From NCBI GenBank assembly GCA_001801685.1, contig MGYJ01000080.1, positions 1 to 49,063 on the forward strand: a stretch of DNA of 49,063 nucleotides, read 5' to 3'. The notes beneath the pieces were generated by a model that saw nothing but the letters and a program-made list of their open reading frames with translations, made no database searches and had not been told where the DNA came from. This DNA comes from Gammaproteobacteria bacterium RIFCSPHIGHO2_12_FULL_63_22. Lineage in GTDB: Bacteria > Pseudomonadota > Gammaproteobacteria > Xanthomonadales > Xanthomonadaceae. The translations under genes and the position numbers were made by a program. The first letter of the stretch is position 1; every line of letters begins with the position of its first letter. Below are positions 20,053 to 40,535 of this stretch, one piece after another.

Positions 20053-20061
20053 CTACGGACG
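20053..20061 (-). promoter_or_regulatory. Late intergenic motif, site G
   Basis: Minus strand CGTCCGTAG in the 44-bp gap before the 19351-20019 gene. From the last A of the core to the start codon is 35 bp. Confidence 0.7.
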
Positions 20062-20063
20062 AA

Positions 20064-22202
20064 CTAGGTCACCGTCACCGCGATTGGGCCGGTTGTGGAC
20101 GCTGCGCTGTCGGCTGCGTTGTATGCCACAGACCAGAGATAATAGTCGTCTGCCGACAGGCTTTCGCTGAACGCCTCTGTCGCGCCAGCAACGCCCGAAT
20201 AGTCGCTGCCCAGCTGTGATGCCGATCCAAATACGCTGGTCGTGCCGTACCACAATTCGCTGTGGCCGAAATTCGACGACGTGCTGTTCGACCACGATCC
20301 GGAGACCGAGCCGCTTCCGCCTGATGCCGTGAACGCAGTGTTCGGCGATGGGGCAAGTGCCGCCGTGCTGGTGCTGATCGTCTCTGTCGCCGACCATCCC
20401 GAAAACTGGCCAGATCCGGTGGAATAGGAAACCTCGACCTCAACCGACTGATCGACCGGGACGAGATCGGACACAAGATCGATGCTCGTCCCTTGCGCGA
20501 TGTCGCTATATTCCTGCTCGTTCCAGACCGTTTCACCATTCAGGCGCCAGTGTAGATACCATGTCAGATCCGCGCGGTCGGGGCTTGAACATGTGATGAG
20601 AATGCGCGCGCTGCCACCGTCGAGTTGCGCCGAACTGGACGACACGACAGGCACAGACAGCGCCGCCATCGCCACCCCATCGCCGACAGGGGCAGGATCG
20701 CCCTCCTCAGTGACTTCGTTCCAATCATCGAGCGCGGCGCTCACCGCCGCCCATGTGAAATTGACGCCGCTGGTCTGGTGGTTGCGCTCAATGGTGAGAA
20801 TTTCGGCGAGGCCGTCATAAAATATCGTTCCGGCTTCCTCGACAGTCAGATTGATGTACCGTTGCCCGATGACCGATCGGCCGGAATAGTTCGTTGAGAT
20901 GGTGCCGGAATATTGGGCATTCTGCCGTGCCATCATCCGCTTGGCGAGATACTGCACTTGAGCGTGACTCGGAACCTGCGGCGCGAATGGCTGCGATACC
21001 TTCCGCCCGCGTTCGGCAATGTCAGCGCTGTCGAGCCATGCGGTTGCCTCGACCGTGTTAAAGTCATGCTGGTCGCTGATGTAGGAGACGATGACCTCGT
21101 TGAGGCGGTCCTCGTCCTCGACAAAATTCTTGACCTCGTAGTCGATGATTTCGGTCGATGTGATCGTCACGGTCGGCGTGTAAAGCTGACCCACATAGAT
21201 GATGAGATACCCCTCTGGCGTCTCCCCCATCCATCCGTCGCAGGTTTTTAGGAATTCAGATATCACCTCGTGCGGCTTGGCGCTGCTGTCGTACATGATC
21301 CAGCCTCGGTAGAGCTTTTCCGCCCCGCCGGCTTTCAACGCTCGTGCTGTGTCGCAGATATTGGCGGCGGCGATCCAGTAATCGATCACCGGTAAAATCT
21401 TCGTGTCGTAATCGACAGGCCGCTTCGTCACGAGATAATGCAACAGGCCGAGGACCGGATTGTCGAAAGAGCCGGTCCAGGTATCATCGTCCGCCCAGTC
21501 CTGCCCGGTCAGGCGAGGATCGAATAGCGTCATCCCATCGATCACGAGCGACAAGGTGATATTGTCGCCCTGCGGATAGACATCCAGAAAATGCTTCTGC
21601 TTGACCGGCGTCTTGAGCATGTAGCCCGCCATCACGCCGTCGCCGCGATGGGATGATGTCCATATGCCGGGCAGCTTGGATATGACGGCAGAGAATGCTG
21701 TTTCCGTCGCCAGACCGAGATTATAGCCGACATTTACCGCGCTGCTGGCATAACGGCCATCGGCCAGCGCGTTGACCGAACTGCCGGTCAACGTCACCAG
21801 ATCGTCGTTGAGATAGATCGCATGGACAGCCGAAACGCGCCCGTCGGCAAACGCGATGACATCAACCGCCGTGCCATCGGTTGCCGTCTCGAATAGCACC
21901 AGAGCGCCATAGGAACGGCGGCGACCGTAGATGTAGTTCCGCAGCGGTGTCGATGTCTTGACCTGGCGCTCTGCCGGTTCCGGTTTTGGCGCGGATGGAG
22001 CGAACAGGCTCCCGACCATCCCCAGCCCTACCGCAAAACCAAGAAGAGAGACAGCCTGAAGGGCGGTGACGGCGATGCCATAGGCCGCGAATGTTCCGCC
22101 AAGCGCGCCGACAATAGCTCCTGAGATCGCTTGCCCGACACCGGGGATGACGTTGACCGCGACAGCCGCGACCACCAGAGCAATACGACCTATCTTCCCC
22201 AT
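20064..22202 (-). CDS. Tail-tip host-specificity protein (J-like)
   Basis: A 712-residue protein; start ATG at 22202. Residues 1-90 hold hydrophobic glycine-rich segments (IALVVAAVAVNVIPGVGQAISGAIVGALGG), a feature of J-like proteins of this phage type. The middle contains the tail-hub-like core (LLHYLVTKRPVDYDTKILPVIDYWIAAANICD, ISEFLKTCDGWMGETPEGYLIIYVG). The C-terminal 200 residues are Ser-rich fibronectin-like repeats. It ends the tail-tip cluster and overlaps the DUF6950 gene by 13 bp. Confidence 0.85.
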   Translation of the reverse strand: MGKIGRIALVVAAVAVNVIPGVGQAISGAIVGALGGTFAAYGIAVTALQAVSLLGFAVGLGMVGSLFAPSAPKPEPAERQVKTSTPLRNYIYGRRRSYGALVLFETATDGTAVDVIAFADGRVSAVHAIYLNDDLVTLTGSSVNALADGRYASSAVNVGYNLGLATETAFSAVISKLPGIWTSSHRGDGVMAGYMLKTPVKQKHFLDVYPQGDNITLSLVIDGMTLFDPRLTGQDWADDDTWTGSFDNPVLGLLHYLVTKRPVDYDTKILPVIDYWIAAANICDTARALKAGGAEKLYRGWIMYDSSAKPHEVISEFLKTCDGWMGETPEGYLIIYVGQLYTPTVTITSTEIIDYEVKNFVEDEDRLNEVIVSYISDQHDFNTVEATAWLDSADIAERGRKVSQPFAPQVPSHAQVQYLAKRMMARQNAQYSGTISTNYSGRSVIGQRYINLTVEEAGTIFYDGLAEILTIERNHQTSGVNFTWAAVSAALDDWNEVTEEGDPAPVGDGVAMAALSVPVVSSSSAQLDGGSARILITCSSPDRADLTWYLHWRLNGETVWNEQEYSDIAQGTSIDLVSDLVPVDQSVEVEVSYSTGSGQFSGWSATETISTSTAALAPSPNTAFTASGGSGSVSGSWSNSTSSNFGHSELWYGTTSVFGSASQLGSDYSGVAGATEAFSESLSADDYYLWSVAYNAADSAASTTGPIAVTVT

Positions 22203-22591
22203 GACGCCACCAGATTGGCAGGATCGATGGATGCGCCGCCGATGCCACGCGGAGAACGAAAGCACCAGCGCTTGCCGGAGAATATCGCGCCGATGTCGAT
22301 CGGTTCACCGTCCTGCCCTTGAACCGTGATCAGGCCGATATTGCCAATCGCGGGATCACCAGAGACGCGCGGCCAAATATCGATCATTCCCTCGCCCCAG
22401 AGCGCCAGCAAGCCGCCCGCCTCGGCAATTAGCAATTCGACTTCGATGTCGGTTTTGTAGCCGCGCCATTTGGCCATAGGATCGATGCCAGTGACCGATT
22501 TGACCCAATCGGCGGCGAAGGTGGTGCAATCGGCAAAACCCCACGCCCACGGCCGCGTCGCCTGCAATTTGAGATATTCGCCCAGATCCAT
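22190..22591 (-). CDS. DUF6950-type tail assembly protein
   Basis: A 133-residue protein. WGFADCTTFAADWVKSVTG has the Cys positioned as in NlpC/P60-derived tail assembly proteins, and the ALWGEG, DIWPRVSGDPAIGNIGLI and CFRSPRG segments match the DUF6950 family that I recall. It probably acts at the tail tip. There is no Shine-Dalgarno before its ATG; the GTCCGTA motif is 34 bp upstream. Confidence 0.75.
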   Translation of the reverse strand: MDLGEYLKLQATRPWAWGFADCTTFAADWVKSVTGIDPMAKWRGYKTDIEVELLIAEAGGLLALWGEGMIDIWPRVSGDPAIGNIGLITVQGQDGEPIDIGAIFSGKRWCFRSPRGIGGASIDPANLVASWGR

Positions 22592-22623
22592 GTTGGTAAG
22601 TGGCCGAAATCAAGCTGGCGCTG

Positions 22624-22632
22624 ATACGGACA
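22624..22632 (-). promoter_or_regulatory. Late intergenic motif, site H
   Basis: Minus strand TGTCCGTAT in the 44-bp gap before the DUF6950 gene. Core-to-ATG distance is 34 bp. Confidence 0.65.
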
Positions 22633-22635
22633 GAC

Positions 22636-23193
22636 TTAAGCCGGGCCGAATCGCCGCGACGTTCCGGCATTGATTTTGCCGACATGGCTGAAAAATGCAT
22701 CGTCGGAACTTCGTCCGCGCTGATCCGCGTCGGTAAAGAATGCTGGCTGTGGATTTGATCGCGTGGTGTCGCCACTGCGGATCGATACCGTCAGCACTCT
22801 TTCGCGGCCCTTCTCGGAATTGCCGGACGCGATCGTCATGCTGTCGGCTACCCCGAGCCACTCCCAATTGATCGTTCCGGACACCTGCCAGTCGTCATCG
22901 AACTCAACCCGCCCGATCAGGACTTCAGCCTCCTGCACTTCGGGGCGGTCCTCCTCGACCAGGCGCAATATCTCCGCCGTGATTCCCGACAACCTGATGT
23001 CGATGCGGTCGGCGGCACCATTCAGCAGCAGCTTGAGCGATGGAACCGAGACGACATGCCCGCCGCCAAGCCATGTGGCGCCGGACGCATCGACGCTATC
23101 GGCTGGCGTTTCGAGTGCACCGTGACCTGACCAGATATAAAGGACCGGCGATACCGCCATCCGAAAGACATAGCTGTGCCGATAGGTCGCCAT
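22636..23193 (-). CDS. Minor tail protein
   Basis: A 185-residue beta-rich protein (YVFRMAVSPVLYIWSGHGALETPADSVDASGATWLGGGHV). Location between the tape measure and DUF6950 genes suggests a distal-tail or hub component comparable to DUF2163 proteins of GTA-like clusters. It starts one base from the tape-measure stop. Confidence 0.7.
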   Translation of the reverse strand: MATYRHSYVFRMAVSPVLYIWSGHGALETPADSVDASGATWLGGGHVVSVPSLKLLLNGAADRIDIRLSGITAEILRLVEEDRPEVQEAEVLIGRVEFDDDWQVSGTINWEWLGVADSMTIASGNSEKGRERVLTVSIRSGDTTRSNPQPAFFTDADQRGRSSDDAFFSHVGKINAGTSRRFGPA

Positions 23194-25568
23194 CAGGAAC
23201 CAAACCTCTGCCTGCGCGCGCTGATGATCGGCGTGTCCCTCACGGCGCTGGCATAGGCTTTCTGGCCTTCCTGCGATGCCGTCTGGTTGACGTAGTTGAT
23301 CAGTTCCGGCGTCGTGATCCCGTAGCGCGCGTCCAGCACGAAGGTCTGTCGCACGACCGTAGTGCCGCCACCCCCGCGCGACAGTGGGCTGTTGCTGACG
23401 TTGACAGTCTCGCCACGGCTCACATTGGCGATGGGCCGACCATTGAGAGAGAGTGTGTTGCGATCGGTTCCGCCACGCCCGCCGATCTGGAATGACCCGC
23501 CACCGGCAAAGCCGAGCAAAGCGGAACCCACGGTAGCAATAACGCCGAGTAGGCCGCTTCCGCCGCCTCCACCAGATGCCCCCGCCAGCGCTTCCGCCAA
23601 CGGGCGCATGATGACCTGTTCGATCAGCAGATTGATCAGCCCGGAAATCAGCGGGTCTTTGGTGCCGATGGCCTTTTGCAGCGCCCCAGCAATACCCTCC
23701 TGCACTGATTGCAGCTCGTCGACGACGTAGGATTCGATGCGGTCTTGCGTATCGGTCTGTGTCAGGCCGCGAGCGTAGCGGTCAAGGGGGGATTCATATT
23801 GTTGCGCCAGCGCCTTGCGCTCATTGGCTTGGCTCGCATCGAGACGGGCAAGGCCAGCCTGCCCCTTGAGAACATCCGTCTGATCGCGGCTCTGGATCAG
23901 ACGCTCATATTCCGCGCGCTCCTGCGACTGCTTCAATTTCAGGATGCGTTTTTCAATCTCATATTGCTCGCGGCGGTTTGCGGTGAGATCAAGGCTCGAC
24001 CGCGCCAGATCTTGCGCACCTCGATTGGCGTCGGTTTCAAGATCGTATTGGCGCTCAAGGATTGCCTCTTCGCGCTTGCGGATGACGGATGCCGCCTCGA
24101 TTGCCGCCACGGTATTGGTGAGCGCCGAAACCTGCTGCTTTTGCAGGGCGGTGTAGCGATCGTCCGCCGCGATCTCTTTGATGGTCGCCTGCCTACCCGC
24201 CTCGATGCGCTGTAGATCAATCGCCGCGCGTTCCTCGGCATCGGTTATTTCGTTGGACTTGAGGCCAAGGATACGATCATTGAGCGCCGCTTCCTCGCGG
24301 GCGAACGCGTCCGCATCGAGCGGCGACTTAGGCCCTTTCTTTGTCCTACCCGTGCCGGTCGGGGTGATCGCGGGCGTGCCCGTGTCCTTGGACTTTCCGT
24401 CGATGCCGACGCCGGGCAGGATGCTCTCGATAAGACCTTGCCACTTGCGATCGGTCGCGTTGTTTTCGAGGCGCTGGCGAGTGTCGCCGCGAGCGTTCTG
24501 AAATGCCGATGAGTTGCCAATCCCGCGCATCCCAAATCCGAACGGATTGAGGTTCTGCGCGACATCGTTCACCCCTTGAACAAATCGCCCAAATCCGGAA
24601 TTTCCTATCGATTCCATCAACCCGATAATGCCGGAAATGACGCTATACGCCTCTTTGCCGACCGCGATCAGTCCAGTAAGTTCCGACCGAACAGTGATCC
24701 CAAATTGTTCCGCCTTGTCCGCCAGGCCATCAAACCCATCCGAACCGTCGCTCACGAAATTGGCGAGCGCGGTGGAAAATTCGCCGCCCCGGTCAAACGC
24801 GCCGAACGTCGTCACGGCAGCGTTATGGACGCGGGTCATCGCTTGATCGAAGGTTACGGGAAGTTGCTTAAATTCAGCGTCTATCTGTTTGGAAGCACCC
24901 GCCAGAGCGTCGATGACCTTCTTGCCCGTGATCTCACCTTCTGCCCCCATCGCGCGCAACTGGCCGATGGTGACGCCGAGCCCGTCCGCCAAAGCCTTCG
25001 CCAGACGCGGCGCATTCTCAAGCACGCTATTCAACTCTTCGCCGCGCAGCGTGCCGGACTGAATGCCCTGTAGAAGCTGTCTGACACCGCCAGCGGCTTC
25101 CGCCGCCGTAGCGCCAGATATTTGGAAAGCCTTTGTGATCGTCTCCGTCGTACGCGCGGCCTCCAACTGTGTGATGCCCAATTGCTTGGCGTTCCGCTGG
25201 AACGTGCCGTACAGCGCGGCGGCTTCCGCCAGCCCGCTGCGCGTCTCATTGGCAATGCGCAAAACATCCTTCTGGGCCTGCGCGAATGAACCGGATTCAC
25301 GGGTTGCCAGCTTCAGTTGAGCATCAAGATTTTTGGCTTCATCGGCAAGGCCGAGAAACCCCTTGGCCAGCGCGACGACCGACACTCCAGCGAGCGCGGC
25401 GCCCATGACGCCAGCCGCACGACTGACGACGCGCTCGGTGCCCGCCGCGTTTTTCTGGATATTGCCCATCGCGCGGTCGAACTTCTGATCGGCGCGCACG
25501 AGGTTAGCCTCATAGCGATCCAGCCTGGCCTCAAGCTCGACGACGACGCGATCTGCAACAACAGCCAT
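23193..25568 (-). CDS. Tape measure protein
   Basis: A 791-residue protein. Residues about 60-260 contain the tape-measure domain (DLDAQLKLATRESGSFAQAQKDVLRIANETRSGLAEAAALYGTF, LLQGIQSGTLRGEELNSVLENAPRLA). The centre is a long coiled coil (residues about 400-570), and the C-terminus is glycine-rich (GGGGGSGLLGVIATVGSALLGFAGGG). Using the usual 0.15 nm per residue, the tail would be about 120 nm long, which fits a siphovirus. It begins two bases after the end of the frameshifted chaperone. Confidence 0.9.
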   Translation of the reverse strand: MAVVADRVVVELEARLDRYEANLVRADQKFDRAMGNIQKNAAGTERVVSRAAGVMGAALAGVSVVALAKGFLGLADEAKNLDAQLKLATRESGSFAQAQKDVLRIANETRSGLAEAAALYGTFQRNAKQLGITQLEAARTTETITKAFQISGATAAEAAGGVRQLLQGIQSGTLRGEELNSVLENAPRLAKALADGLGVTIGQLRAMGAEGEITGKKVIDALAGASKQIDAEFKQLPVTFDQAMTRVHNAAVTTFGAFDRGGEFSTALANFVSDGSDGFDGLADKAEQFGITVRSELTGLIAVGKEAYSVISGIIGLMESIGNSGFGRFVQGVNDVAQNLNPFGFGMRGIGNSSAFQNARGDTRQRLENNATDRKWQGLIESILPGVGIDGKSKDTGTPAITPTGTGRTKKGPKSPLDADAFAREEAALNDRILGLKSNEITDAEERAAIDLQRIEAGRQATIKEIAADDRYTALQKQQVSALTNTVAAIEAASVIRKREEAILERQYDLETDANRGAQDLARSSLDLTANRREQYEIEKRILKLKQSQERAEYERLIQSRDQTDVLKGQAGLARLDASQANERKALAQQYESPLDRYARGLTQTDTQDRIESYVVDELQSVQEGIAGALQKAIGTKDPLISGLINLLIEQVIMRPLAEALAGASGGGGGSGLLGVIATVGSALLGFAGGGSFQIGGRGGTDRNTLSLNGRPIANVSRGETVNVSNSPLSRGGGGTTVVRQTFVLDARYGITTPELINYVNQTASQEGQKAYASAVRDTPIISARRQRFGS

Positions 25569-25569
25569 A

Positions 25570-26165
25570 TCAATGCACCTTCGCTATGCCAGCGCGTTCC
25601 ATGCGCAGGAACATCGCCGAGACTTCATCCGCCGCAGGCGCTTCCGGTTCAGCACCATCGCTGTTGGTGGCGTTGTGGAAGTGCGAGATGGCGAGATATT
25701 CGGGCATGGTGATCCTCTCCGCGTCGTGGAGCGTCAATCCGAGAGTGACGCAGTTGTGGAGGATGAGGCCCCAGTCGATTTTCTTCGGCTCCCGGTCCTC
25801 TGTTGCGGCGGGCTTTTTTTTTGCGCCGGTTCCGGCTCGTATCCGACATAGAGGGCGCTGATGATCGCGCGCGCGATGACATGGCTTTGCGCGAGCGGTT
25901 TGTCCTCGACGTAGTTCTCGATCAGGCTATTCGCCTTCAGGTCGCTCACCACATATTCGATGCCGTTGACCTCACCCTTGCCGCCGCCGATCAGCCCTTG
26001 CCGGATCGTCTCGACAACATCGTGGATCGAGAAGCCACCGGAGATAAGGCGATGGCGCACCAGATCGATCGGTCCTGCTTTCGCTTCGATTTCGACGATG
26101 CGCTTGATGGGCAGGCGGAAATGATAGTTGCCGTCTGCGAAGCTGAGGGAAATTCCTGTTTGCAT
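25570..26165 (-). CDS. Tail assembly chaperone GT, -1 frameshift product
   Basis: Reading the upstream frame to the A9 run and then shifting -1 gives a 198-residue fusion. After the shift the sequence is protein-like: KKIDWGLILHNCVTLGLTLHDAERITMPEYLAISHFH and ending MFLRMERAGIAKVH, with the stop two bases before the tape-measure start. The T part has no good start codon of its own near the slip. This is the arrangement of gpG/gpGT in lambda, where the T domain recruits the tape measure. The unshifted frame ends in low-complexity sequence (TGASSSTTASLSD). Shift efficiency is unknown. Confidence 0.75.
25734..26165 (-). CDS. Tail assembly chaperone G, GTA-gp10-like
   Basis: The unshifted 143-residue product. 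SLSFADGNYHFRLPIKRIVEIEAKAGPIDLVRHRLI and YVVSDLKANSLIENYVEDKPLAQSHVIARAIISALY match the gp10-type protein of gene-transfer-agent clusters, which occupies the chaperone slot between major tail protein and tape measure. Start ATG at 26165 has no Shine-Dalgarno; the GTCCGTA motif lies 34 bp upstream. Confidence 0.8.
   Translation of the reverse strand: MQTGISLSFADGNYHFRLPIKRIVEIEAKAGPIDLVRHRLISGGFSIHDVVETIRQGLIGGGKGEVNGIEYVVSDLKANSLIENYVEDKPLAQSHVIARAIISALYVGYEPEPAQKKSPPQQRTGSRRKSTGASSSTTASLSD
25814..25822 (-). other. A9 slippery run, programmed -1 frameshift site
   Basis: The minus-strand mRNA reads CAA AAA AAA AGC in the zero frame. Tandem AAA-AAA codons allow slippage back by one base to give CAA AAA AAA AAG CCC. 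Nine A in a row is the longest homopolymer I noticed in this GC-rich genome. A single-base assembly error is the alternative. Confidence 0.75.
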
Positions 26166-26197
26166 GGCGCGAGGCTATGGGCTCGCGGCAGCGCTCG

Positions 26198-26206
26198 CTA
26201 CGGACA
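26198..26206 (-). promoter_or_regulatory. Late intergenic motif, site F
   Basis: Minus strand TGTCCGTAG; its first base belongs to the T-tract side of the terminator just upstream. Core-to-ATG distance for the chaperone gene is 34 bp. Confidence 0.65.
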
Positions 26207-26229
26207 AAAAGGCGGCCCGAAGACCGCCT
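26206..26229 (-). terminator. Rho-independent terminator after the major tail gene
   Basis: On the minus strand, AGGCGGTC-TTCG-GGCCGCCT forms an 8-bp stem (one G-T pair) with a UUCG tetraloop, followed by TTTTT (the last stem T starts the run). It lies between the major tail protein and the chaperone, where termination would keep the abundant tube protein transcript separate from the low-abundance tail genes. Confidence 0.85.
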
Positions 26230-26251
26230 GTAGGTGCAGGGTTGCGATGGA

Positions 26252-26704
26252 TCAGGGGATGGCAACGAAGCTTTTTGCGCCGCCCGCCGTAATGGTCAGG
26301 CTGATCTGGATATATTCGCCATTTGTGGCAGTGATATTGAGATCGGTGACGATGCCGGGGCCTTCATAATAGCCGCTGATGACCTCATCGCCCGACGCCT
26401 CATCGAAATAGAAGCGGAAATTGGTCGTGGTCGTCGTGTCATAAGCCGCCTGCAATGTGGCGAGCAACGGGCGGTGCAGAAGGCCAGAGCCTGAAATAGA
26501 CCAGTCCGTTGCGTTGACATCGCGGGTGATGACCGGGATCGCATCGGGATCAGCGCAATCCCAATCGGTGGTGTCCGAGGTGGCGCGGGTCTGCTGGAAT
26601 CCCTTGGTCGAAATGCCGCACAGCGTCGTAAAAACCTCTGGCGTCGCGCCATCGCCGATCATGATGGCAACGCGCGTACCCTTGAGCTTGTTGGTATAGG
26701 CCAA
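26252..26704 (-). CDS. Major tail (tube) protein
   Basis: A 150-residue protein starting at TTG behind GGGAG. LKGTRVAIMIGDGATPEVFTTLCGISTKGFQQTRATSDTTDWDC and FRFYFDEASGDEVISGYYEGPGIVTDLNITATNGEYIQISLTIT match the TP901-1-like tail tube family. Position between the tail terminator and chaperone genes agrees. It is followed by a strong terminator. Confidence 0.85.
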   Translation of the reverse strand: MAYTNKLKGTRVAIMIGDGATPEVFTTLCGISTKGFQQTRATSDTTDWDCADPDAIPVITRDVNATDWSISGSGLLHRPLLATLQAAYDTTTTTNFRFYFDEASGDEVISGYYEGPGIVTDLNITATNGEYIQISLTITAGGAKSFVAIP

Positions 26705-26759
26705 TTCCGGAACTCCCGAATTAATTTACGGGAACGGTATGGCCGTCAAGGCCAAGGCT

Positions 26760-26768
26760 CTACGGACG
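26760..26768 (-). promoter_or_regulatory. Late intergenic motif, site E
   Basis: Minus strand CGTCCGTAG in the 69-bp gap before the major tail gene. Core-to-start distance is 57 bp and the gene has a Shine-Dalgarno. The window 22-27 bases after the core reads TACCGT, a poor -10. Confidence 0.7.
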
Positions 26769-26773
26769 GGCGA

Positions 26774-27441: not shown

Positions 27442-27444
27442 TCA

Positions 27445-27960
27445 TCACGCCGCGACGGAGCGCCCGATGATCACAATATCATAGGTGACGCCAGTGCCGG
27501 ACGAGCTGTTAGTGATGGTGAGCAGATCCCCGGTTCCAGCCGTCACTGCCCATCCGGTTTGCGAGACGAGCAGCGCATATTCGCCGGGCTTTACGCCGAT
27601 ACCATCGCCAGCGGCAAGGAATGGGCCGACAAAGCCATTCGAGGCTGGGCGGGTGACGTTGACGTTGTTGGTGTTGCCGGACGCCGCTTCGATATAGATC
27701 GCGACGATTTCGGCCGCCGTAATGGTGGCGCCGAATGCGTTGGTCAGCACGCCAGCAAGATCGAGGTCTTCGGTTGCGCTGGCAGCGAGCGTGCGCTGAT
27801 CGGCGAACATCAGATCGGCCTGATTGACAGCGGCGGTGCCAGCCGAAATCTGCAAAAGCTGCGTGATGGTGTCGATACCCGCGCGCGGGGTGCCGAGATC
27901 GGCGGTGCCGGACAGGGATGCCTTGATGCTGAGGGAAATTTCCCCGGTTACGCCAGCCAT
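27445..27960 (-). CDS. Minor structural protein of the head-tail region
   Basis: A 171-residue beta-rich protein (VTGEISLSIKASLSGTADLGTPRAGIDTITQLLQISAGTAAVNQADLMFADQRTL) with Ala/Thr/Gly-rich content. Similar proteins in alphaproteobacterial siphoviruses lie between neck and tail genes. It may be a decoration or neck fibre protein. Good AGGAG Shine-Dalgarno. Confidence 0.65.
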   Translation of the reverse strand: MAGVTGEISLSIKASLSGTADLGTPRAGIDTITQLLQISAGTAAVNQADLMFADQRTLAASATEDLDLAGVLTNAFGATITAAEIVAIYIEAASGNTNNVNVTRPASNGFVGPFLAAGDGIGVKPGEYALLVSQTGWAVTAGTGDLLTITNSSSGTGVTYDIVIIGRSVAA

Positions 27961-28018
27961 ATTCTAATCTCCTGATCTATGGATCAGGCGGCATTGTGGC
28001 GATGGCTGTGGGGGATTA

Positions 28019-28027
28019 ATACGGACG
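28019..28027 (-). promoter_or_regulatory. Late intergenic motif, site D
   Basis: Minus strand CGTCCGTAT in the 74-bp gap before the 27445-27960 gene. Core-to-ATG distance is 60 bp; the window 22-27 bases after the core reads CACAAT, an acceptable -10. Confidence 0.7.
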
Positions 28028-28034
28028 AGCGCGG

Positions 28035-29469: not shown

Positions 29470-29478
29470 TTGGCACTC

Positions 29479-31296: not shown

Positions 31297-31314
31297 ATTG
31301 CTACACCCTTAGCG

Positions 31315-31581: not shown

Positions 31582-31591
31582 CGTTCGTCCC

Positions 31592-32029: not shown

Positions 32030-32032
32030 TTA

Positions 32033-32203
32033 TCAGCCCTCTTTGTCCGCAGACTTTACCGCTTTTGCCGCGATCTTTTCGAACCACTCTTCCGAGAAGT
32101 CGTCCGCCTCGATTTCTTCGCCCGGCGCGGCCCACACGAGCACACCATCGAGATATGCGCCGCGTGGGCCGGTCGAGATGTTCCTGACCTTGGCCTTAGC
32201 CAT
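32033..32203 (-). CDS. Small protein directly after capsid gene
   Basis: A 56-residue protein (MAKAKVRNISTGPRGAYLDG, VWAAPGEEIEADDFSEEWFEKIAAK) with a one-base overlap to the capsid stop. A short N-terminal beta part resembles the small head-accessory proteins with RNISTGPRGAY that occur next to phage capsid genes. Function unknown. Confidence 0.65.
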   Translation of the reverse strand: MAKAKVRNISTGPRGAYLDGVLVWAAPGEEIEADDFSEEWFEKIAAKAVKSADKEG

Positions 32204-33300: not shown

Positions 33301-33313
33301 TTTTGTCGTCTCC

Positions 33314-34027
33314 TCAGCGCTTCACGATCTTGACAAGGTTCGTATCAGCCCCGCTCGTATCAAAAACCCAGCCGGGCAGCGGGATGCCGCTGGTATCGAA
33401 ATCGCCATCGGCAGCGACATGGACGGCGGCGCCATCCGTTACCGTACCGCCAGCGGTCACCCATATGGCCCCAGAAGTCAGGATCGGCACGTTGTCATAC
33501 TGCTGATATTCGTCAGCATCCTGCCCGGTGAGAATCTGCTGACCCGACGTGGCAATGGAGATGCCGAGGAAGGCGTTGCCGGTGACGTCGACATAGGCCT
33601 GATCGCCAATCGTCATCGTGTCGCCGTTCGCCCAGGTGAAGGCGACACCACCAGCACTGAATGCCGTGGCAATCTTGCCTGTGCCGATAACGATGCCATC
33701 GGGATCGGTGACATTGAAAGCGCCGGTCGCCGAAGTAGCGAGCAGGGTGACGGTGTAGCGCCCGATCTTTGCGCCAGCCGAAATCGTCGGCGTAGCGGTA
33801 ATCGTGCCGGTGCCGACGTTGCCAGCGGCCTCCGAACCCGCGCCTGCCAGCGTCTGCGCAAGGAGGCATCCGTGATCGTTCGCGCCGCGATACACGGCCT
33901 TACCGAAGCCGATCCCGGCAGCGGTTTCACATGTGCGGGTGATGCGGTTGCCCGTTTCACCATTGGCGATCATGCCTGCATAAGCGGCGGCGATCGTGTT
34001 GGAATAGGTGGTCTGAAGTTCAGCCAT
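33314..34027 (-). CDS. Structural cement/decoration protein
   Basis: A 237-residue beta-rich protein, start behind GGGAGG. AYAGMIANGETGNRITRTCETAAGIGFGKAVYRGANDHGC and YDNVPILTSGAIWVTAGGTVTDGAAVHVAADGDF match the structural cement (gp24-like/DUF2190-type) proteins. The middle (residues about 70-150) looks like an inserted Ig-like domain. Confidence 0.75.
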   Translation of the reverse strand: MAELQTTYSNTIAAAYAGMIANGETGNRITRTCETAAGIGFGKAVYRGANDHGCLLAQTLAGAGSEAAGNVGTGTITATPTISAGAKIGRYTVTLLATSATGAFNVTDPDGIVIGTGKIATAFSAGGVAFTWANGDTMTIGDQAYVDVTGNAFLGISIATSGQQILTGQDADEYQQYDNVPILTSGAIWVTAGGTVTDGAAVHVAADGDFDTSGIPLPGWVFDTSGADTNLVKIVKR

Positions 34028-34038
34028 TATCGCCTCCC

Positions 34039-35142
34039 TTAATACTGAGCAGCGCGGACGAAATCGCGCACGCTAGCGTTGTCGTTCGTGGTGGAATGCC
34101 GCTGATCCCGCAGGTTTTGCGCGATGGGGTCGCTCGTGCCGCCATCCTTGAGCCCGTCGAAACGCGCCTCGATGTAGTCGTCGGACTTATCCGCAACCGC
34201 AGCGTCGCCGAGCTTGGCCGCAACAGCCATGCGGCGAACGTCCGCGACGGTCTTGCCGGCGGTGTCGCCGAGCTTGTCCCCAGCGATCTTCTTTGCATCG
34301 GCGACGACGGTTGCCTTGGCGTCGGCGAGCGCGTCGATCTTCGCCTGATCGACCACCTGGCCTTTCAGCTTGTCGATCTCTGCGTCCTTCGCGGCCATCT
34401 CCTTGTCGTGGGCGGCCTTTGCGTCGGCGAGGGTTTTCTGAGCGGCCGTCGCGGCGTCCTGAAACTTTTTGATCGCGGCTTCGACGGCAGCCGCGTCCGA
34501 CAGATCGACCACAAGGCCGTCAAGCGTGATCTTTGGCACTTTCTTCTCCATATTGAACGCCGACATCGCGGCGGGGTTTGCGTCGCAAATGGCGAATTTC
34601 TCGCCATCCTTGATCGCGCAATTGGAACCGGCGCGGCCATGATCGACCAAAGCGACATGGTTGCCGGAAATGCTGGCCTGCCGAACCGGGCACACGGTGC
34701 CATCGGCGGCGGTGAACAAGCCGAACTCGAGATCGGCGGCGTATCCGTTGGACAATTCGCGCTTGCCCGCTTCGATCTTGCTGATTGCCTCAGCATCCGT
34801 GACCATCAGGTCGAAGGCGAGATAATCGCCGTCGCGCATTGCCCCCATGACGGTGCCGCGCGCGTGCTGCCGCCAGTTGTCGGCGGTGACGGCTTGACTG
34901 GGATGATTGTCGGTGATCGGTTTACCGATGAAGCTCTTGACCGCGCGCTCGTCGAAAACGGTATTTTCGTCGCGCAGCACCTTGACCGTCGCCTGATCGC
35001 GCAGGCCGTGCTTGTTCTCGGGGTCTACCTCGCTGCCTGCATAGTCATAGACGCCGAGCCGCGCAGCCTTGGCGCGAACGGCAAGAAAGCCATCCTTGGT
35101 GCGGCGCGGTGCGTCCAGAGTGAGGCGGTCGGCAAAATACAT
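34039..35142 (-). CDS. Prohead protease-scaffold fusion, DUF2213-like
   Basis: A 367-residue protein. The N-terminal half is a DUF2213 protease (YAGSEVDPENKHGLRDQATVKVLRDENTVFDERAVKSFIGKPITDNHPS, with His in TDNHPS, Ser in KRELSNGY and the HVALVDHGRAGSNCAI block). Residues about 220-290 form a long coiled coil (scaffold part). The C-terminus ends RDFVRAAQY. No Shine-Dalgarno before the ATG; the GTCCGTA motif lies 35 bp upstream. Confidence 0.85.
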   Translation of the reverse strand: MYFADRLTLDAPRRTKDGFLAVRAKAARLGVYDYAGSEVDPENKHGLRDQATVKVLRDENTVFDERAVKSFIGKPITDNHPSQAVTADNWRQHARGTVMGAMRDGDYLAFDLMVTDAEAISKIEAGKRELSNGYAADLEFGLFTAADGTVCPVRQASISGNHVALVDHGRAGSNCAIKDGEKFAICDANPAAMSAFNMEKKVPKITLDGLVVDLSDAAAVEAAIKKFQDAATAAQKTLADAKAAHDKEMAAKDAEIDKLKGQVVDQAKIDALADAKATVVADAKKIAGDKLGDTAGKTVADVRRMAVAAKLGDAAVADKSDDYIEARFDGLKDGGTSDPIAQNLRDQRHSTTNDNASVRDFVRAAQY

Positions 35143-35175
35143 GCGCCATGTTTGGCGCGAGCATGGGGTTATGCT

Positions 35176-35184
35176 CTACGGACG
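35176..35184 (-). promoter_or_regulatory. Late intergenic motif, site C
   Basis: Minus strand CGTCCGTAG in the 77-bp gap before the protease-scaffold gene. Core-to-ATG distance is 35 bp. After the motif are two short hairpins, GAGCAT-ATGCTC and GCGCCA-TGGCGC, the second of which runs up to the ATG. Confidence 0.7.
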
Positions 35185-35219
35185 GTCATCCGAACTCTGT
35201 GATGTCCCACCAATCGGGG

Positions 35220-35594
35220 TCATGGTAGCGCCTTAACCACACTGACTTTGAACAGTTCGGGATAACAGCGCTTCGCTGTCTGCTTCCACAAATTCTTGAT
35301 TGCGCCGCGCCATGTACCGAATCCGTACATCAGCAGCGAATTACCACCTTCTGTGGCATGAATTTCCATGGAAACGGTAGGGTCTTTGACGGCACCTCCG
35401 AAATTGCCGAAGCGAAAATCGACCTTAAAGCCATAGGCCGTCACACCAACGTCGGACCTACCTCCTTCGTCCCAATAACCAGCAACACATTGCGCAATTT
35501 CCTGCGCCGGTCGCTCTGTATCGACGAGAATATATGATCTGTCAGCAGGAGGCTGAACTGACGCGGTAAGGGCAGTCAGAGTGAGGATCATCAT
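35220..35594 (-). CDS. Exported small protein, probable moron
   Basis: A 124-residue protein with a short hydrophobic N-terminus (MMILTLTALTASVQPP) that could be a signal peptide, two cysteines and no recognised family. It sits between the MuF and protease genes, a place normally without a gene, and its DNA is visibly more AT-rich than its neighbours. Both features suggest a later insertion (moron). It is followed by motif site C. Confidence 0.6.
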   Translation of the reverse strand: MMILTLTALTASVQPPADRSYILVDTERPAQEIAQCVAGYWDEGGRSDVGVTAYGFKVDFRFGNFGGAVKDPTVSMEIHATEGGNSLLMYGFGTWRGAIKNLWKQTAKRCYPELFKVSVVKALP

Positions 35595-35625
35595 GATGGG
35601 TGCTTAACACAGAAACCTGTGCTTC

Positions 35626-36438
35626 CTAAAGCCCAAATTCATCCATAAGGGGGAGGTAGGCTTGAGCGCGGCAACCGCAGTACGGCGCCTGCCCTGGCGT
35701 GTCTCCTGACGGCTCACCCAGCTTGAACAACTTCCCGTTGCGCGCCTGATGCTCGAGCCGTGGATGCGCTTTTCCACTATGACGCCAGCGATATTGCTCA
35801 ATCGCAGCCTCGGCCTGCCGCTCCATGTCGAGTTGCGCCGACAGCTTCGACGATTGATCGGCGGCTATCCGTATCGCGCGCTTCCGGCCCAACGCCGCAG
35901 CCTCGTTCAGTTGCTTGGCGACTTCACGGATGGGTGTGCGGTTCTGATACTCGCGGAACACGATGTCCGAAATTCGCCCGCGCGTCTGATCCGAGACATC
36001 GCGGACCAAAGCGACATTGCGCTCAAGCCACGAGCCGAGCGTCTCCTGAACCGGCATCGCCGTCAACACATTGGACAGATCGACATTCGTTGCGGTGTTG
36101 ACGGCGTCGATCCACTTGCCGCGATGCCACTTCTCGATCTTCGCCGACCAGTTGCGCAATTGCGCCGTGATCGGGATGACCAGTCGGGAAATCTCGCTGT
36201 TCGCCGTTTCGATGGCCCCACGCATGGCGTCGGCGGTGTCTGTGAGCATCGCATCGCCGAGCGGTTTCGGATCGTACCCGGCAAGGATGGCAGGTAGCCA
36301 GCTTTTCCAGACGTTCGTCACCTGCACGAGAATGGCGGCGAGTTCCTGCGCCTGCGCCTGCGTCGGGTTGATCGGGCGGAGGGTAACCGCCCTTTTTATG
36401 CCTTTCGCGCGTGCGAGTGTGGCGAGGTCGATGGGCAC
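35626..36438 (-). CDS. Mu F-like head morphogenesis protein
   Basis: A 270-residue protein. The C-terminus (YRWRHSGKAHPRLEHQARNGKLFKLGEPSGDTPGQAPYCGCRAQAYLPL) is the MuF minor-head signature, with conserved Pro-x-x-x-Cys-Arg-Cys-like ending. The N-terminal 150 residues are helical. It follows the portal gene by 3 bp. Confidence 0.85.
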   Translation of the reverse strand: MPIDLATLARAKGIKRAVTLRPINPTQAQAQELAAILVQVTNVWKSWLPAILAGYDPKPLGDAMLTDTADAMRGAIETANSEISRLVIPITAQLRNWSAKIEKWHRGKWIDAVNTATNVDLSNVLTAMPVQETLGSWLERNVALVRDVSDQTRGRISDIVFREYQNRTPIREVAKQLNEAAALGRKRAIRIAADQSSKLSAQLDMERQAEAAIEQYRWRHSGKAHPRLEHQARNGKLFKLGEPSGDTPGQAPYCGCRAQAYLPLMDEFGL

Positions 36439-36441
36439 GGC

Positions 36442-38373
36442 CTACTCCTCCGAGACCTTCACCTTCCAGTCCAGATCCAAGGGTTCAAAAATCTCCGGGC
36501 CGAACACGAGTTCGCCGTTGAATGGCTTGATTGCGTCCAGATCAACATCATCGGGAACGGTATAGCTCAGCGTTACATGGGGCCGATATTCGTCATAGTC
36601 ATGACTTCCGCCCGCCTCGATCAGATCGCGGTGGCGATATTCGAGTGACGGCGCGACAAAGCGCAACACGACGGCGTTTTCGCCCAAGCGCTCTATGGCA
36701 CGTGGGCCACCTGGTCGAACGATAATCCGGCCTTTCTCGTCCTCTGACCAGTCACGGCCCATCTTCATCGGATCGACCGGGGCGCGAGAGTACAGCACCG
36801 TCACATGCATGTCGGTTGCCGCCAGTGTCGACGCAAAGCCATTCGCCTTTGCCCAATCAACCAGATCGGCGGCGTTCAAGATCTTGCGCTGAACGTAAAG
36901 CGGGCGAGGTGATGCATCGGCAAGCCACGCGTCATTCGCCGCACGTGCAGGGGCCGGACTTCCGCTCGGCCCCTGCGCCGTGGGAGATGTTGGATCAACC
37001 TCCTTTCCGTTCGGTTGCGTCAAAGCCGATGGGTCTTCGGAGCCCGGATCAAACGACATGTCCGGAAGTTCCTCAATCGCTTGTTCAAGGCCGGGCCAGC
37101 GTTGCGATTCGATCATGCGGTTCTGCACAGCCTTTGACAGCGCGGGATCGGGCACGAGGCCGGTCGATACGATCTTCGAGACGGTATCCGCCTCCATGTT
37201 CTCGATCTCGGCGCGCTCCTTGTCGGATATGATCGCCAGCGAGTTCCAGACGTAGCTGATGCTGGCGGGATCAGTGCCCAGAACGGACGGGATCAGCACA
37301 TCGTCGATGCGATCGATGGTCGGCGCGAGGTAAAGCCGCTGCTTCGACCGGATCATCGTGTGGTAGTTTTTCTCGTCACCCTCTCCAGTGGCGTTCATGC
37401 CCTGCGGGGCGCGACCGAGCAGGCGTGTCGCTGGGATATCGGCGGCGCCGGCCACGACCGCCATCAGGCACTCGATCATTTCCGGCATTCCGGTCAGGGT
37501 AAGCTGGCGCTGGATGAACTCGTCATCCTTGTCGAGAAATACCCCGCGCAGGGAAGATTTGCCCGCGTCGGTATATTCGACGCGCTGGCGGACGGTGGCC
37601 TCATTCGCCGCCAATTGCTCCATGAAGCCTGCCATGCGGTAGACATCGATCTTGGCTTCGTCAATCAGGCGCGCGAACCCGTCGTTGGCCTTGACCGCGT
37701 TTTTGACGGCGCGGTCGACGCGCTGGATCACGCTGTCGCCCCAGAACTGATCCTCCCATGTCGTCATGCCCATGTTCGGGACCGGCGCGCCGGGGAATAC
37801 GACCATGCGCGATGGATGGATGGGGACGGACTGATAATCGCTGGCGATGCGGAAATATTGGGGATGTCCGTACCATGGCGACGTAATGTCCTTGTTTTTC
37901 TCCCCAAGGCTCAGTTCGAAACGGTTGAAAACATGAACGTATTTGAGCGCGTCGAGGCCGATACTGGAAGGGCGCGGCATGGACGGATTGACATCGCCAA
38001 AACCGAGCAGGATCGCGGCGCCACCACACAGCCGCGACAATGCGAGCGCGGACTGAACCTTGCCAACGATGCCGAATTTGCGCTCGGCTTCCTCCAGTTT
38101 CTCGATCTGGTCTTTCTCGGCCTGCCAGTTGCGCCACTCGCGCACCATGTCTTCGGCCGGAATGTCGACGATCTTGCCAACGAGCCAGTTGGATCGATAG
38201 GCGGCCATTAGCTGCTGCTGATCCATCGCCATGAACGACCACAGATCGAAGATGCTGCGGTCTCGCGATGTCCCAGCGCCACTGACGAGATTGGCGAGTC
38301 CATCGCGGTGCATACGCACGACGTTGGACCTTGGCGCGATGGGATTTCCGCGTGCGTCTAGGATGGTGACCAT
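36442..38373 (-). CDS. Portal protein fused to Acb1-like two-histidine phosphodiesterase
   Basis: A 643-residue protein. Residues 1 to about 430 are a DUF1073-type portal (SNWLVGKIVDIPAEDMVREWRNW, LSRLCGGAAILLGFGD, NMGMTTWEDQFWGDSVIQRVDRAVKNAVKANDGFARLI, ATRLLGRAPQGMNATGEGDEKNYH). A Pro/Ser linker (about 440-485) leads to residues 491-643, which carry two H-x-T motifs: H523-V-T (DMHVTVLYS) and H599-V-T (YRPHVTLSY). This pair is the catalytic hallmark of 2H phosphodiesterases and of Acb1, which cleaves cyclic nucleotide signals of CBASS defence. The enzyme would be built into the portal ring. No Shine-Dalgarno precedes the ATG. Confidence 0.85.
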   Translation of the reverse strand: MVTILDARGNPIAPRSNVVRMHRDGLANLVSGAGTSRDRSIFDLWSFMAMDQQQLMAAYRSNWLVGKIVDIPAEDMVREWRNWQAEKDQIEKLEEAERKFGIVGKVQSALALSRLCGGAAILLGFGDVNPSMPRPSSIGLDALKYVHVFNRFELSLGEKNKDITSPWYGHPQYFRIASDYQSVPIHPSRMVVFPGAPVPNMGMTTWEDQFWGDSVIQRVDRAVKNAVKANDGFARLIDEAKIDVYRMAGFMEQLAANEATVRQRVEYTDAGKSSLRGVFLDKDDEFIQRQLTLTGMPEMIECLMAVVAGAADIPATRLLGRAPQGMNATGEGDEKNYHTMIRSKQRLYLAPTIDRIDDVLIPSVLGTDPASISYVWNSLAIISDKERAEIENMEADTVSKIVSTGLVPDPALSKAVQNRMIESQRWPGLEQAIEELPDMSFDPGSEDPSALTQPNGKEVDPTSPTAQGPSGSPAPARAANDAWLADASPRPLYVQRKILNAADLVDWAKANGFASTLAATDMHVTVLYSRAPVDPMKMGRDWSEDEKGRIIVRPGGPRAIERLGENAVVLRFVAPSLEYRHRDLIEAGGSHDYDEYRPHVTLSYTVPDDVDLDAIKPFNGELVFGPEIFEPLDLDWKVKVSEE

Positions 38374-38407
38374 GGGGCGGACGGTGCCTTGTTGGCGCGC
38401 GCGAAAG

Positions 38408-38416
38408 CTACGGACG
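38408..38416 (-). promoter_or_regulatory. Late intergenic motif, site B
   Basis: Minus strand CGTCCGTAG in the 45-bp gap between terminase and portal. Core-to-ATG distance is 36 bp. Confidence 0.7.
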
Positions 38417-38418
38417 GG

Positions 38419-39747
38419 CTAAAGCGCGTCGGTCCATGGGCGAGCGCCATCGAGCATCAATTCCGTCAGCGCCCAGACCAGAGCATCGGCGCGGTCGGGG
38501 GAGCCTTCACCGACGTAGCCCGAAGCCGTCATGTTGCACATCTGATCCTCCAAATCCGGGAAATGGCCACAGTGGCTGACCTTCGCCTGTTCGTAGAGCG
38601 CTGCAATCGGTTCGGCGCGAACGACCTTGCCACGGCTTGCCACGACCTCCTTGTACGACGCTGAGCGGTCGGCGGCCTTGATGACGGCCGCGACCATAGC
38701 GCCACCATAATTGCGTTCGGCGATGATCCTGTCTGCGTTCCATCGGCGGTACATCTCGATCACCCGGCGCGCCCATCCTTCCGGGCTCAACTGGCAGGTG
38801 GCGTCTTCCAGCACATAGCCGCGCCCATCAATGCCTACACCGGCCACGACAATGCCGATGTCATCGCCTGTGTCATCGCCCTTGGTTCCGGATGGATCGA
38901 CCGCGACGACGATACGGCGAAGTTTCGGATGCTCGGCAACGCGGGTTGTGTCGATGCCGGGGATAGGCTTGCCATCGTGCGCGGAACGGTCCTCCATCGT
39001 CCAGAGCGCGCTGTTGACCTCGCTCGCCCATTCGCCCTCCTTGAACCGCAGGCGCTTGGCGGTGGACATGGTGTCGAGCACGTCGAAATATTCTTCCGGC
39101 AGGTTCTCGCGGTTGTCCTCGGGGTTGACCTTCATCTCGGCGTAATCGTCAGGGTTGGCCAGCGCCTCTTTCGTGCCTGGCTTCAGTTTCTGCCGGAAAA
39201 GCTGATAGGACCAGTGGAGCTTTGAGGGTGGATTGCAGTCGAAATATGCCTTGAGCGCGAGTGCCGTCCGCCCTGTTGCCTTGGCTATCTCGGGTGCCAG
39301 CGCGCACTTCTGGGCAAGGCGAGACATGGCGGTCTCGATCGACCCCCACGGGATTTGCGAGGATTCGTTGAAATAGACGGTGGCGTACTCAGATCCGAGT
39401 ATCTTCTCGACGCGATCCTTGTCGTCGAGGCCGGCTATCCAGATTTGCGAACCGTTGGGCAGTTCAGCGTAGAAATCCGTCTTGTCGAACCGCACCCGCA
39501 ACGTCGGGAAGCATAGCTTGATGACCTTGGGCAGTGTGTCGGCCCAGATCGATGTCTTCGCGTGGTTGAACCTGAAACGGAAGATGACATGGCGGCTATT
39601 CGGCGCATTTATCGCCCTTTGCACGATCGCCCGGCACAGGAGAAACGTCTTGCCGGAACGCGAACCGCCCCGGAGCATGATGTTGCGGGCGGGGCTGGCG
39701 AGGAGGCGGTTTGCTTCGCGTTGTTTTGGGGTGAGGACGGCGGTCAG
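38419..39747 (-). CDS. terL: Terminase large subunit, apparent CTG start
   Basis: A packaging ATPase/nuclease. Walker A GGSRSGKT (residues 27-34), Walker B VYFNE, and a nuclease domain with VAVDPSGT, DRIIAERNYGG and DRADALVWAL. The first ATG (39678) leaves the Walker A only 4 residues from the end; the reading frame upstream (TAVLTPKQREANRLLASPARNI) is the conserved adenine-binding N-terminus. The only start-like codon for it is CTG at 39747, overlapping the small-subunit stop as CTGA with GGAGG ten bases upstream. I therefore take 39747, giving 442 residues. Confidence 0.85.
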   Translation of the reverse strand: MTAVLTPKQREANRLLASPARNIMLRGGSRSGKTFLLCRAIVQRAINAPNSRHVIFRFRFNHAKTSIWADTLPKVIKLCFPTLRVRFDKTDFYAELPNGSQIWIAGLDDKDRVEKILGSEYATVYFNESSQIPWGSIETAMSRLAQKCALAPEIAKATGRTALALKAYFDCNPPSKLHWSYQLFRQKLKPGTKEALANPDDYAEMKVNPEDNRENLPEEYFDVLDTMSTAKRLRFKEGEWASEVNSALWTMEDRSAHDGKPIPGIDTTRVAEHPKLRRIVVAVDPSGTKGDDTGDDIGIVVAGVGIDGRGYVLEDATCQLSPEGWARRVIEMYRRWNADRIIAERNYGGAMVAAVIKAADRSASYKEVVASRGKVVRAEPIAALYEQAKVSHCGHFPDLEDQMCNMTASGYVGEGSPDRADALVWALTELMLDGARPWTDAL

Positions 39748-40256
39748 AGTTCCGCATCCTCCGAGCCGATGTTGATATTGATCGTGCCGGTTTGCGCGAC
39801 CTGATCGCGGAATGCTTGCACGCCGACATGTTTGCCGAGCAATTCGAGGTTCCTGACCTTATCCGGCCATTTGATCTTTTTCAGGATGCCGACAATCTGA
39901 CGATCATCGCCACGGCCCTTGAACATCTCCGCAACGTCGAAGCCTGAGAGATATCGACGCCAAACCGAAGGCCACTGTGAAATAGGCTTCAGGGTCATGT
40001 CCTCGCCCATGATGTCGAGCACATCCATATCGTCGATTTCAACAAGACGCTTCAGCACATAGGCAGCATCTATTTCGGCGCGTTCGGCGCGCTTGGCCAA
40101 AGCCTTTTCGATAGCGGCTGCTACACAAGTTTTCCCAAGCAACTCTGGGCCGATGCGATCAGCGTTTTTCTGGCTGTATCCAGCACGGCGTGCTGCGGCC
40201 GTCGCATTCAGGTCTATCAGGTATTCGCGGACGAACGCCTCTTGCTTTGGCGTCAT
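39744..40256 (-). CDS. terS: Terminase small subunit
   Basis: A 170-residue protein of the Terminase_2 type. MTPKQEAFVREYLIDLNATAAARRAGYSQKNADRIGPELLGKTCVAAAIEKALAKR is the classic N-terminal DNA-binding HTH. The start at 40256 follows GGAGGAGG. It recognises the packaging site together with the large subunit. Confidence 0.9.
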   Translation of the reverse strand: MTPKQEAFVREYLIDLNATAAARRAGYSQKNADRIGPELLGKTCVAAAIEKALAKRAERAEIDAAYVLKRLVEIDDMDVLDIMGEDMTLKPISQWPSVWRRYLSGFDVAEMFKGRGDDRQIVGILKKIKWPDKVRNLELLGKHVGVQAFRDQVAQTGTININIGSEDAEL

Positions 40257-40471
40257 GGCGAAACCTCCTCCAAAGCCGTCACATCCCCCCGCATGTAACG
40301 GCGGCGCAGGGTACGTAGACGCTCCTTGTCGCATTCGTTGAGCCACCGGAGCATGATGTCGGTACGAGCGCCGTAATAGCGTTCGATGCCGCGCCATCCA
40401 TCCTTGACGAAGCGTGACGCGAACCCCTCGGGCGCTGGTTCGTACGGACGGCAATAAACCGTTATGCTCAT
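40253..40471 (-). CDS. Small protein upstream of terminase
   Basis: A 72-residue basic protein (MSITVYCRPYEPAPEGFASRFVKDGWRGIERYYGARTDIMLRWLNECDKERLRTLRRRYMRG) behind AGGAGG, with an ATGA overlap with terS. GWRGIERYYGARTDIMLRWL looks helix-turn-helix-like. It may assist packaging; family not known to me. Confidence 0.7.
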   Translation of the reverse strand: MSITVYCRPYEPAPEGFASRFVKDGWRGIERYYGARTDIMLRWLNECDKERLRTLRRRYMRGDVTALEEVSP

Positions 40472-40526
40472 ATTTGCCCTCCTGAGCCCCATAGAGCGCA
40501 ATTATCAACTCTTGGCCCTCCGATAC

Positions 40527-40535
40527 CTACGGACG
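40527..40535 (-). promoter_or_regulatory. Late intergenic motif, site A, with candidate late promoter
   Basis: Minus strand CGTCCGTAG in the 100-bp gap ahead of the packaging genes. The best -10 of all sites, TGATAAT, follows the core by 20 bases, and the start codon is 57 bp from the core with AGGAGG in between. This would be the first promoter of the head-packaging block. Confidence 0.7.

Follow-up and report, generated by a model that had tools for sequence, protein, structure and literature searches.

In Staphylococcus phages, a small phage protein of the RinA/Ltr type, encoded just upstream of the packaging genes, is needed for late transcription (PMC13123087), and in phage Mu one activator, protein C, serves the late promoters lys, I, P, and mom of the host RNA polymerase (PMC4461284). 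In phage T4, a hairpin hides the start region of the genes e, soc, 49, and I-TevI in the long early RNA, and for e and I-TevI a late promoter located at the 5′ arm of the hairpin yields an RNA without it (PMC3014915, PMC2988022). Repeats at gene starts within one phage group are exemplified by the SAS and ESAS elements of the Cluster K mycobacteriophages, of which ESAS varies between subclusters (PMC3203893). Here, we describe a 7-bp core, GTCCGTA, that recurs before late genes of a phage on the 49,063-nucleotide contig MGYJ01000080.1 of Gammaproteobacteria bacterium RIFCSPHIGHO2_12_FULL_63_22 (the whole stretch is hereafter called the window), together with a small gene of helix-turn-helix (HTH)-like type at 40253-40471.

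The sites, their spacing, the replacement of one allele by another in place, the conservation of a -10-like sequence, and the co-occurrence with the HTH gene were computed directly. We consider it reasonably probable that the cores mark late promoters with a GTCCGTA-type upstream element, which are read by the phage-encoded HTH-like protein of 72 amino acids (aa) together with the host RNA polymerase. The phage family appears to switch on its particle-building genes via many small, near-identical promoters ahead of individual genes, and the reader of these promoters is probably a tiny, previously unnamed phage DNA-binding protein.

Distribution and spacing of the GTCCGTA core

The window contains 12 copies of GTCCGTA on both strands, compared with 2.67 on average and at most 7 in dinucleotide shuffles. 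Eight of the nine minus-strand copies between 19351 and 41087 lie inside gaps of at least 40 bp, of which simple open reading frame (ORF) calls define 11 in this late region, and which make up 4.3% of the stretch (binomial P = 1.1e-10). The sequence-only reading from which this work started had placed the core at eight minus-strand positions in the late operon, and it was found at all of them, far above chance (P about 1e-10). Its claim that every gap of 40 bp or more carries the core holds for the eight gaps; the ORF calls add three gaps without the core, all of which look coding when the sequence is read. The gap at 25569-25733 follows the tape-measure gene, that at 32030-32202 is a short ORF, and that at 39679-39743 is an apparent N-terminal extension of TerL. 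TerL seems to begin there 5′ of the first ATG/GTG/TTG of its frame, and this part resembles the N-terminus of the TerL of locus L045. The four other copies of GTCCGTA are located within coding sequence or antisense, at 14111 and 40443 on the minus strand and at 37866 and 41943 on the plus strand.

All eight sites are on the minus strand. The first (40528-40534) precedes the HTH gene and TerS, with a GATAAT -10-like sequence at 40501-40506 and 56 bp between the end of the core and the ATG, which has a Shine-Dalgarno sequence. The cores at 38409-38415 and 35177-35183 stand 35 and 34 bp before the ATG of the portal gene (36442-38373) and of the head maturation protease gene (34039-35142), respectively. 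For the gene at 27445-27960, the core at 28020-28026 is separated from the ATG by 59 bp, with a CACAAT -10-like sequence at 27993-27998 and a Shine-Dalgarno sequence after a 6-bp stem. For the major tail gene (26252-26704), the core at 26761-26767 lies 56 bp before a TTG start codon, with TACCGT at 26734-26739 as the -10-like sequence, and a predicted stem pairs the Shine-Dalgarno region of this gene. The remaining three cores belong to the genes at 25734-26165 (core 26199-26205, 33 bp to the ATG, -10-like TAGCCT at 26172-26177), 22190-22591 (core 22625-22631, 33 bp to the ATG), and 19351-20019 (core 20054-20060, 34 bp to the ATG, -10-like CAGGTT at 20027-20032). Thus, the two spacing groups described before are real, at 33-35 and 56-59 bp, with exact counts that are one base shorter in places, and the GATAAT and CACAAT sequences reported at the first and fourth of these sites are present.

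At the level of the whole 4.26-Mb assembly, the extended motif YGTCCGTAG occurs 28 times, six times on this 49-kb contig. Contig C97 of this assembly (L001, L002) has four copies, which lie in or beside long ORFs of the opposite strand and were judged to be chance occurrences; it carries an 1852-aa ORF, with the four copies on the other strand. Rfam, at gathering thresholds, gave no match in the window.

Alleles of the core at the same position in related phages

A scan with the protease yielded 59 viral loci, and the 95 bp 5′ of each protease match were compared. GTCCGTA was found in six of them (L004, L018, L025, L039, L057, and L059), GGCGGTAA occupies the equivalent position in most of the others, and GAACCTACA occupies it in six more (L023, L034, L043, L044, L045, and L055). 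Promoters with these three alleles are referred to below as classes A, B, and C, respectively. Minor variants of the core were seen in a few more loci with the same spacing, and in 14 viral loci (L042, L046, L048-L054, L056, L058, and L060-L062) no core was seen 5′ of the protease. In the set of genomes from GTDB, 18 Sphingomonadales loci carry a core (L117, L121, and L135 with minor alleles), and seven loci from Rhizobium, Neorhizobium, and Pseudomonas are without one. Strains with such loci include Sphingomonas montanisoli ZX and Sphingobium jiangsuense DSM 26189. These comparisons show that the element is conserved as a position rather than as one sequence.

L004 is the same phage as that of the window, and its closest other relatives by protease (L005-L008) bear the other allele. 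The sequence-only reading had named the absence of the motif from close relatives as evidence against itself. GTCCGTA is indeed absent from the nearest relatives, but another allele is found in the same place, so its absence there does not refute that reading.

The cores are strongly biased toward the late strand, with counts on the late and the other strand of 47 versus 6 for class A (10 loci), 127 versus 14 for class B (33 loci), and 22 versus 0 for class C (5 loci). The locus lists behind these counts omit near copies and short contigs (L004, L006, L011, L014, L044, L059, L115, and L123) and loci with minor alleles (L009, L027, L033, L035, L036, L117, L121, and L135) but retain some near copies, such as L013 and L019; identical sites were collapsed only in the unique totals. 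In 17 records that were inspected piecewise, correctly spaced sites extend into the downstream late region, and few were seen elsewhere. The class A promoters of L018, L025, and L116 share a TGGC prefix to the core, and L025 and L116 have a distinct HTH subtype.

Anatomy of the proposed promoters

In classes A, B, and C alike, the distances from the core to the start codon peak at 33-35. The consensus block of class B (113 sites) is CTGACGGCGGTAA, with T at 0.66 and A at 0.90 at positions +28/+29 from the core start, that is, a -10-like TA about 20 bp after the core. In the window, A at +29 is combined with T at +33 in five of the eight sites (P about 5e-6), and the -10-like sequence holds its distance to the core at the short and the long sites. 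As in sigma-70-type promoters in which an activator replaces the -35 element, a -10-like element thus stands at a fixed distance from the putative activator site. When +28/+29 and +33 are taken as -12/-11 and -7, transcription is predicted to begin approximately at the ATG in the genes of the short-spacing group.

The class B core is preceded by TGA. A stop triplet occupies this place in 75 sites; it terminates an open frame of 80 codons or more in 34 of them and one shorter than 40 codons in 29. This TGA belongs to the motif and is not merely a stop codon. In the window, an intrinsic-terminator-like hairpin with a T run lies directly 5′ of the core at 26199 (26206-26229, approximate ends, minus strand). 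A terminator in front of every core was rejected, as it was found at two of 163 sites versus one of 1630 control positions.

The earlier proposal that late promoters have the core as their upstream element therefore gains comparative support from the fixed spacing, the TA about 20 bp downstream, and the terminator-like hairpin before 26199. Its further proposal that the short-spacing genes make leaderless mRNAs agrees with the predicted start at about the ATG, and leaderlessness itself would follow from that prediction. Overall, the sequences of the cores and their surroundings fit promoters that would start at or near the ATG, or before a leader with a Shine-Dalgarno sequence.

A candidate activator upstream of the terminase genes

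The sequence-only reading had looked for the activator among the genes at 40572-41087, 46704-47144, and 47141-47626. The best candidate is instead the gene at 40253-40471 (minus strand), which it had listed only as the small gene on the terminase side; 46704-47144 and 47141-47626 were found in one and four of 24 records, respectively. The candidate gene lies just upstream of the terminase and overlaps the start of TerS (read at 40256), and its location in the relatives is similar. Its 72-aa product is confidently modelled as all helical with a predicted local distance difference test score (pLDDT) of 85, and its family was assembled by iterated profile search. Some relatives (L043, L045, L023, L055, and L025) have a long C-terminal extension.

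The HTH family gave no match in Pfam and a single match in PHROGs (E 0.095), on L045 and outside its HTH. NCBIfam, searched with the HTH protein of the window only, gave weak matches far below the cut-off, to metabolic enzymes. Homology to RinA, Ltr, or ArpU was thus not found in Pfam, PHROGs, and NCBIfam, libraries that may not hold all such families, and a remote kinship may exist. A viral library returned one unnamed 55-aa protein, A0A516LNL1 (E 0.035, 41% identity). Against 299 genomes of the same order, the HTH alignment found only the window's own copy, a weak negative in which the first look scored 18 candidates per listed genome.

The presence of the HTH family closely follows that of the motif. 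Among viral loci that reach 7 kb or more 5′ of the protease, the family was detected in all 28 motif-bearing ones (that of L029 in a separate piece) and in none of 11 motif-less ones; among those that reach less than 7 kb, it was detected in one of 17 motif-bearing ones. In the genome loci, it is present in all 18 motif-bearing and absent from all seven motif-less ones. When 731 ORFs from the record of L047 and from the window were used as seeds, the HTH family was the sole one present at 17/17 motif-bearing and 0/16 motif-less records, the latter being one complete contig and 15 partial loci in which distant genes are poorly judged. The runners-up were two families at 16/17 and 0/16 and an integrase-like family at 17/17 and 1/16.

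In addition, the HTH protein alone leads to new loci with the expected core. In contigs found by the B-type protein, GGCGGTA lies 31-37 nt before an ATG or GTG on the expected strand in 27 of 29; so placed, it occurs on the other strand in 8 of 29, the class A core in 1 of 29, and the class C core in 0 of 29. The contigs found by the C-type and the A-type protein have their own core so placed in 2/2 cases each. These contigs are not all independent (the HTH of L173 is identical to that of L043, and L163 and L164 are apparent near copies). MT836812.1, found via the HTH in a phage collection, has two class B sites, each 33 bp from an ATG; one of these sites precedes the HTH gene itself.

Inverted repeats and predicted gating of translation

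In the window, the protease gene has two inverted repeats between its core and its ATG (35143-35176, minus strand), the second of which, GCGCCA-AACA-TGGCGC, ends directly before the ATG. After the removal of duplicate leaders, inverted repeats of at least 5 bp between core and ATG were counted in 27 of 41 protease promoters (shuffled mean 5.9, maximum 11) and 16 of 40 leadered promoters (shuffled mean 7.3, maximum 13). The other short promoters have them in 6 of 72 (shuffled 5.0), and repeats of at least 6 bp in 4 versus 1.0. The stem sequences differ, and the repeats bracket the -10 region mainly at the protease and the leadered genes, both in the window (35143-35183) and in the relatives.

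For the leadered genes, the 3′ arm often contains the Shine-Dalgarno sequence, and the 5′ arm precedes the predicted start. The modelled accessibility of the Shine-Dalgarno sequence in read-through RNA was 0.22, compared with 0.33 when the upstream arm was shuffled (n = 34, p 4.5e-4, with relatedness uncorrected). In the promoter-made RNA, the modelled accessibility was 0.41 versus the 0.22 of read-through RNA, in a comparison that is biased by length.

Apparent inheritance of the promoter class

The number of changes in promoter class required on trees of 37 loci, with the minor alleles placed in class B, was 2 for portal, 4 for HTH, 9 for protease (the gene to which the classed promoter belongs), and 11 for capsid. 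For the HTH tree, the shuffled mean was 12.6, and 0 of 200 shuffles were as low. These are quick trees, and that of the HTH, on 54 columns, is poorly resolved. Because the class changes are few on the HTH and portal trees and many on the protease and capsid trees, the promoter class seems to be passed on together with the HTH-terminase-portal end of the late operon; the promoters of the downstream genes that have been exchanged seem to match the class of that end.

Discussion

In the mechanism that we infer, with respect to protein-DNA recognition, the polymerase used, the start position, the timing, and the translational gating, the cores would be upstream (-35-region) elements, with one promoter before each late transcription unit. 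The HTH-like protein would bind to the element (7-13 bp, at about -45 to -33), in substitution for a -35 box, and, once bound, would recruit the host RNA polymerase, using the -10-like hexamer about 20 bp downstream. For the leaderless genes, transcription would start at the ATG or no more than a few bases from it; for the others, it would start ahead of a leader of about 15-25 nt that carries a Shine-Dalgarno sequence. At the protease gene and at many of the leadered ones, the 5′ arm of an inverted repeat precedes the predicted start; this repeat would prevent the translation of read-through RNA and would be absent from the promoter-made RNA. Separate lineages would use separate alleles of the element and of the activator. 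A wider picture, which we put forward tentatively and for which the case falls slightly short of balanced, is that of a family of minimal activators (about 55-110 aa in most) with lineage-specific promoter codes and dispersed, mostly leaderless late promoters in Sphingomonadales phages, in which the promoters of exchanged virion genes are rewritten to the resident code, and in which a hairpin like that of T4 gene e, formed only by read-through RNA, prevents the maturation protease from being translated too early.

Several observations weigh against this mechanism. The -10 signal of class A is weaker than that of class B, and at the site 28020 the stem also falls within the promoter-made RNA, so that the gating would not be uniform. 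Solved-structure and fold searches with the HTH model gave no PDB match worth naming; we therefore infer DNA binding from the sequence pattern and the helices only. Autoactivation of the HTH gene was rejected as a rule, any core within 110 bp upstream of it being found in just 4 of 26 loci; a core at a plausible spacing is clear in the window and L138. With the protease, portal, and capsid distances controlled, the partial r between HTH distance and promoter distance is 0.037 (p 0.25), and portal distance predicts promoter distance with a partial r of 0.47 (the motif is present in 60 loci and the HTH in 44 of them, and the 37 with portal and capsid matches were used). Three HTH subtypes accompany the class B promoters, and two accompany those of class A, as judged from alignments by eye. 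Shared descent could account for the co-occurrence, since the genome loci lacking the motif belong to other hosts, and the motif-less records are for the most part partial. Finally, a predicted ParB-like neighbour, the gene at 40572-41087, is present in part of the group.

This neighbour leads to the alternative that the late promoters exist as proposed, with their specificity provided by the product of 40572-41087, by TerS, or by a host sigma factor, and with the HTH gene merely travelling along. The gene (minus strand) is located upstream of the HTH gene and encodes a 171-aa protein, a possible second regulator whose model resembles the DNA-binding domains of ParB/Noc; this resemblance weighs slightly in favour of such a role and slightly against the HTH protein. 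Its family is conserved in 13 of 24 records. In a search of records other than the genome loci L112-L136, even iterated profiles did not find it in at least six that bear the motif (L021, L023, L028, L036, L038, and L045), and it is therefore not favoured as a universal regulator. The TerL and TerS of the window match in nine and ten of 24 records, respectively, and a host factor would not account for the allele differences among phages of one host order. We regard this alternative as unlikely, though still to be reckoned with.

It is less probable again, to the point of being a poor candidate, that the element acts on RNA, serving for antitermination or processing of one long late transcript whose processed ends would be where ribosomes load. 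The location of most cores on the coding strand of the late operon, the fixed distance to the start codon, and the nearby hairpins would suit such an element, but the TA conserved about 20 bp past the core is typical for a -10 sequence, the stem arms in many leadered genes straddle the predicted start, which is sensible if the RNA begins between the arms, and a terminator-like hairpin lies directly before the core at 26199. A start-associated translation signal is very improbable. The SAS repeats of the Cluster K mycobacteriophages likewise stand before gene starts within one phage group (PMC3203893), but they are described as immediately upstream of the starts, and the core here is 33-59 bp off, beyond the usual ribosome contact, with a -10-like sequence that keeps its distance to the core at the short and long sites.

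Searches of the open-licence PMC literature on late regulators, on leaderless late genes of phages, and on transcription in Sphingomonas phages gave, among the matches listed, no account of this system or of how these phages programme their late transcription, and the letters of the core motif brought up nothing on phage promoters by title among the matches listed. If the activator reading is true, late promoters in Sphingomonadales phages and prophages could be annotated by sequence alone with the help of the recognisable promoter code and the tiny activator, classes A, B, and C would form a natural series of activator-promoter pairs for studying specificity switches, and the translation of a gene would here appear to be linked to the promoter of that gene. 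From the pattern of alleles, it seems that promoters take their identity from the resident upstream module, with the genes behind them coming from elsewhere.

The system may work like those of RinA/Ltr or Mu C. The candidate HTH gene resembles RinA/Ltr in its location just upstream of the terminase; for RinA/Ltr, one promoter downstream of the regulator is described, with repeats at -107 to -42, whereas here many promoters are dispersed, each with a single core that overlaps the -35 region. Compared by description only, Mu C serves four promoters, and here eight sites stand directly before individual virion genes. T4 uses a phage sigma factor, gp55, and TATAAATA late promoters (PMC3014915); here, the hairpin device is only predicted, at the protease and the leadered virion genes. 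In Cluster K, SAS adjoins the start codon, and here a -10-like sequence lies between the core and the gene. As judged from the sequences compared, what would distinguish the present system from the known ones is the combination of many single-core promoters before individual genes, an allele series, and predicted gating hairpins.

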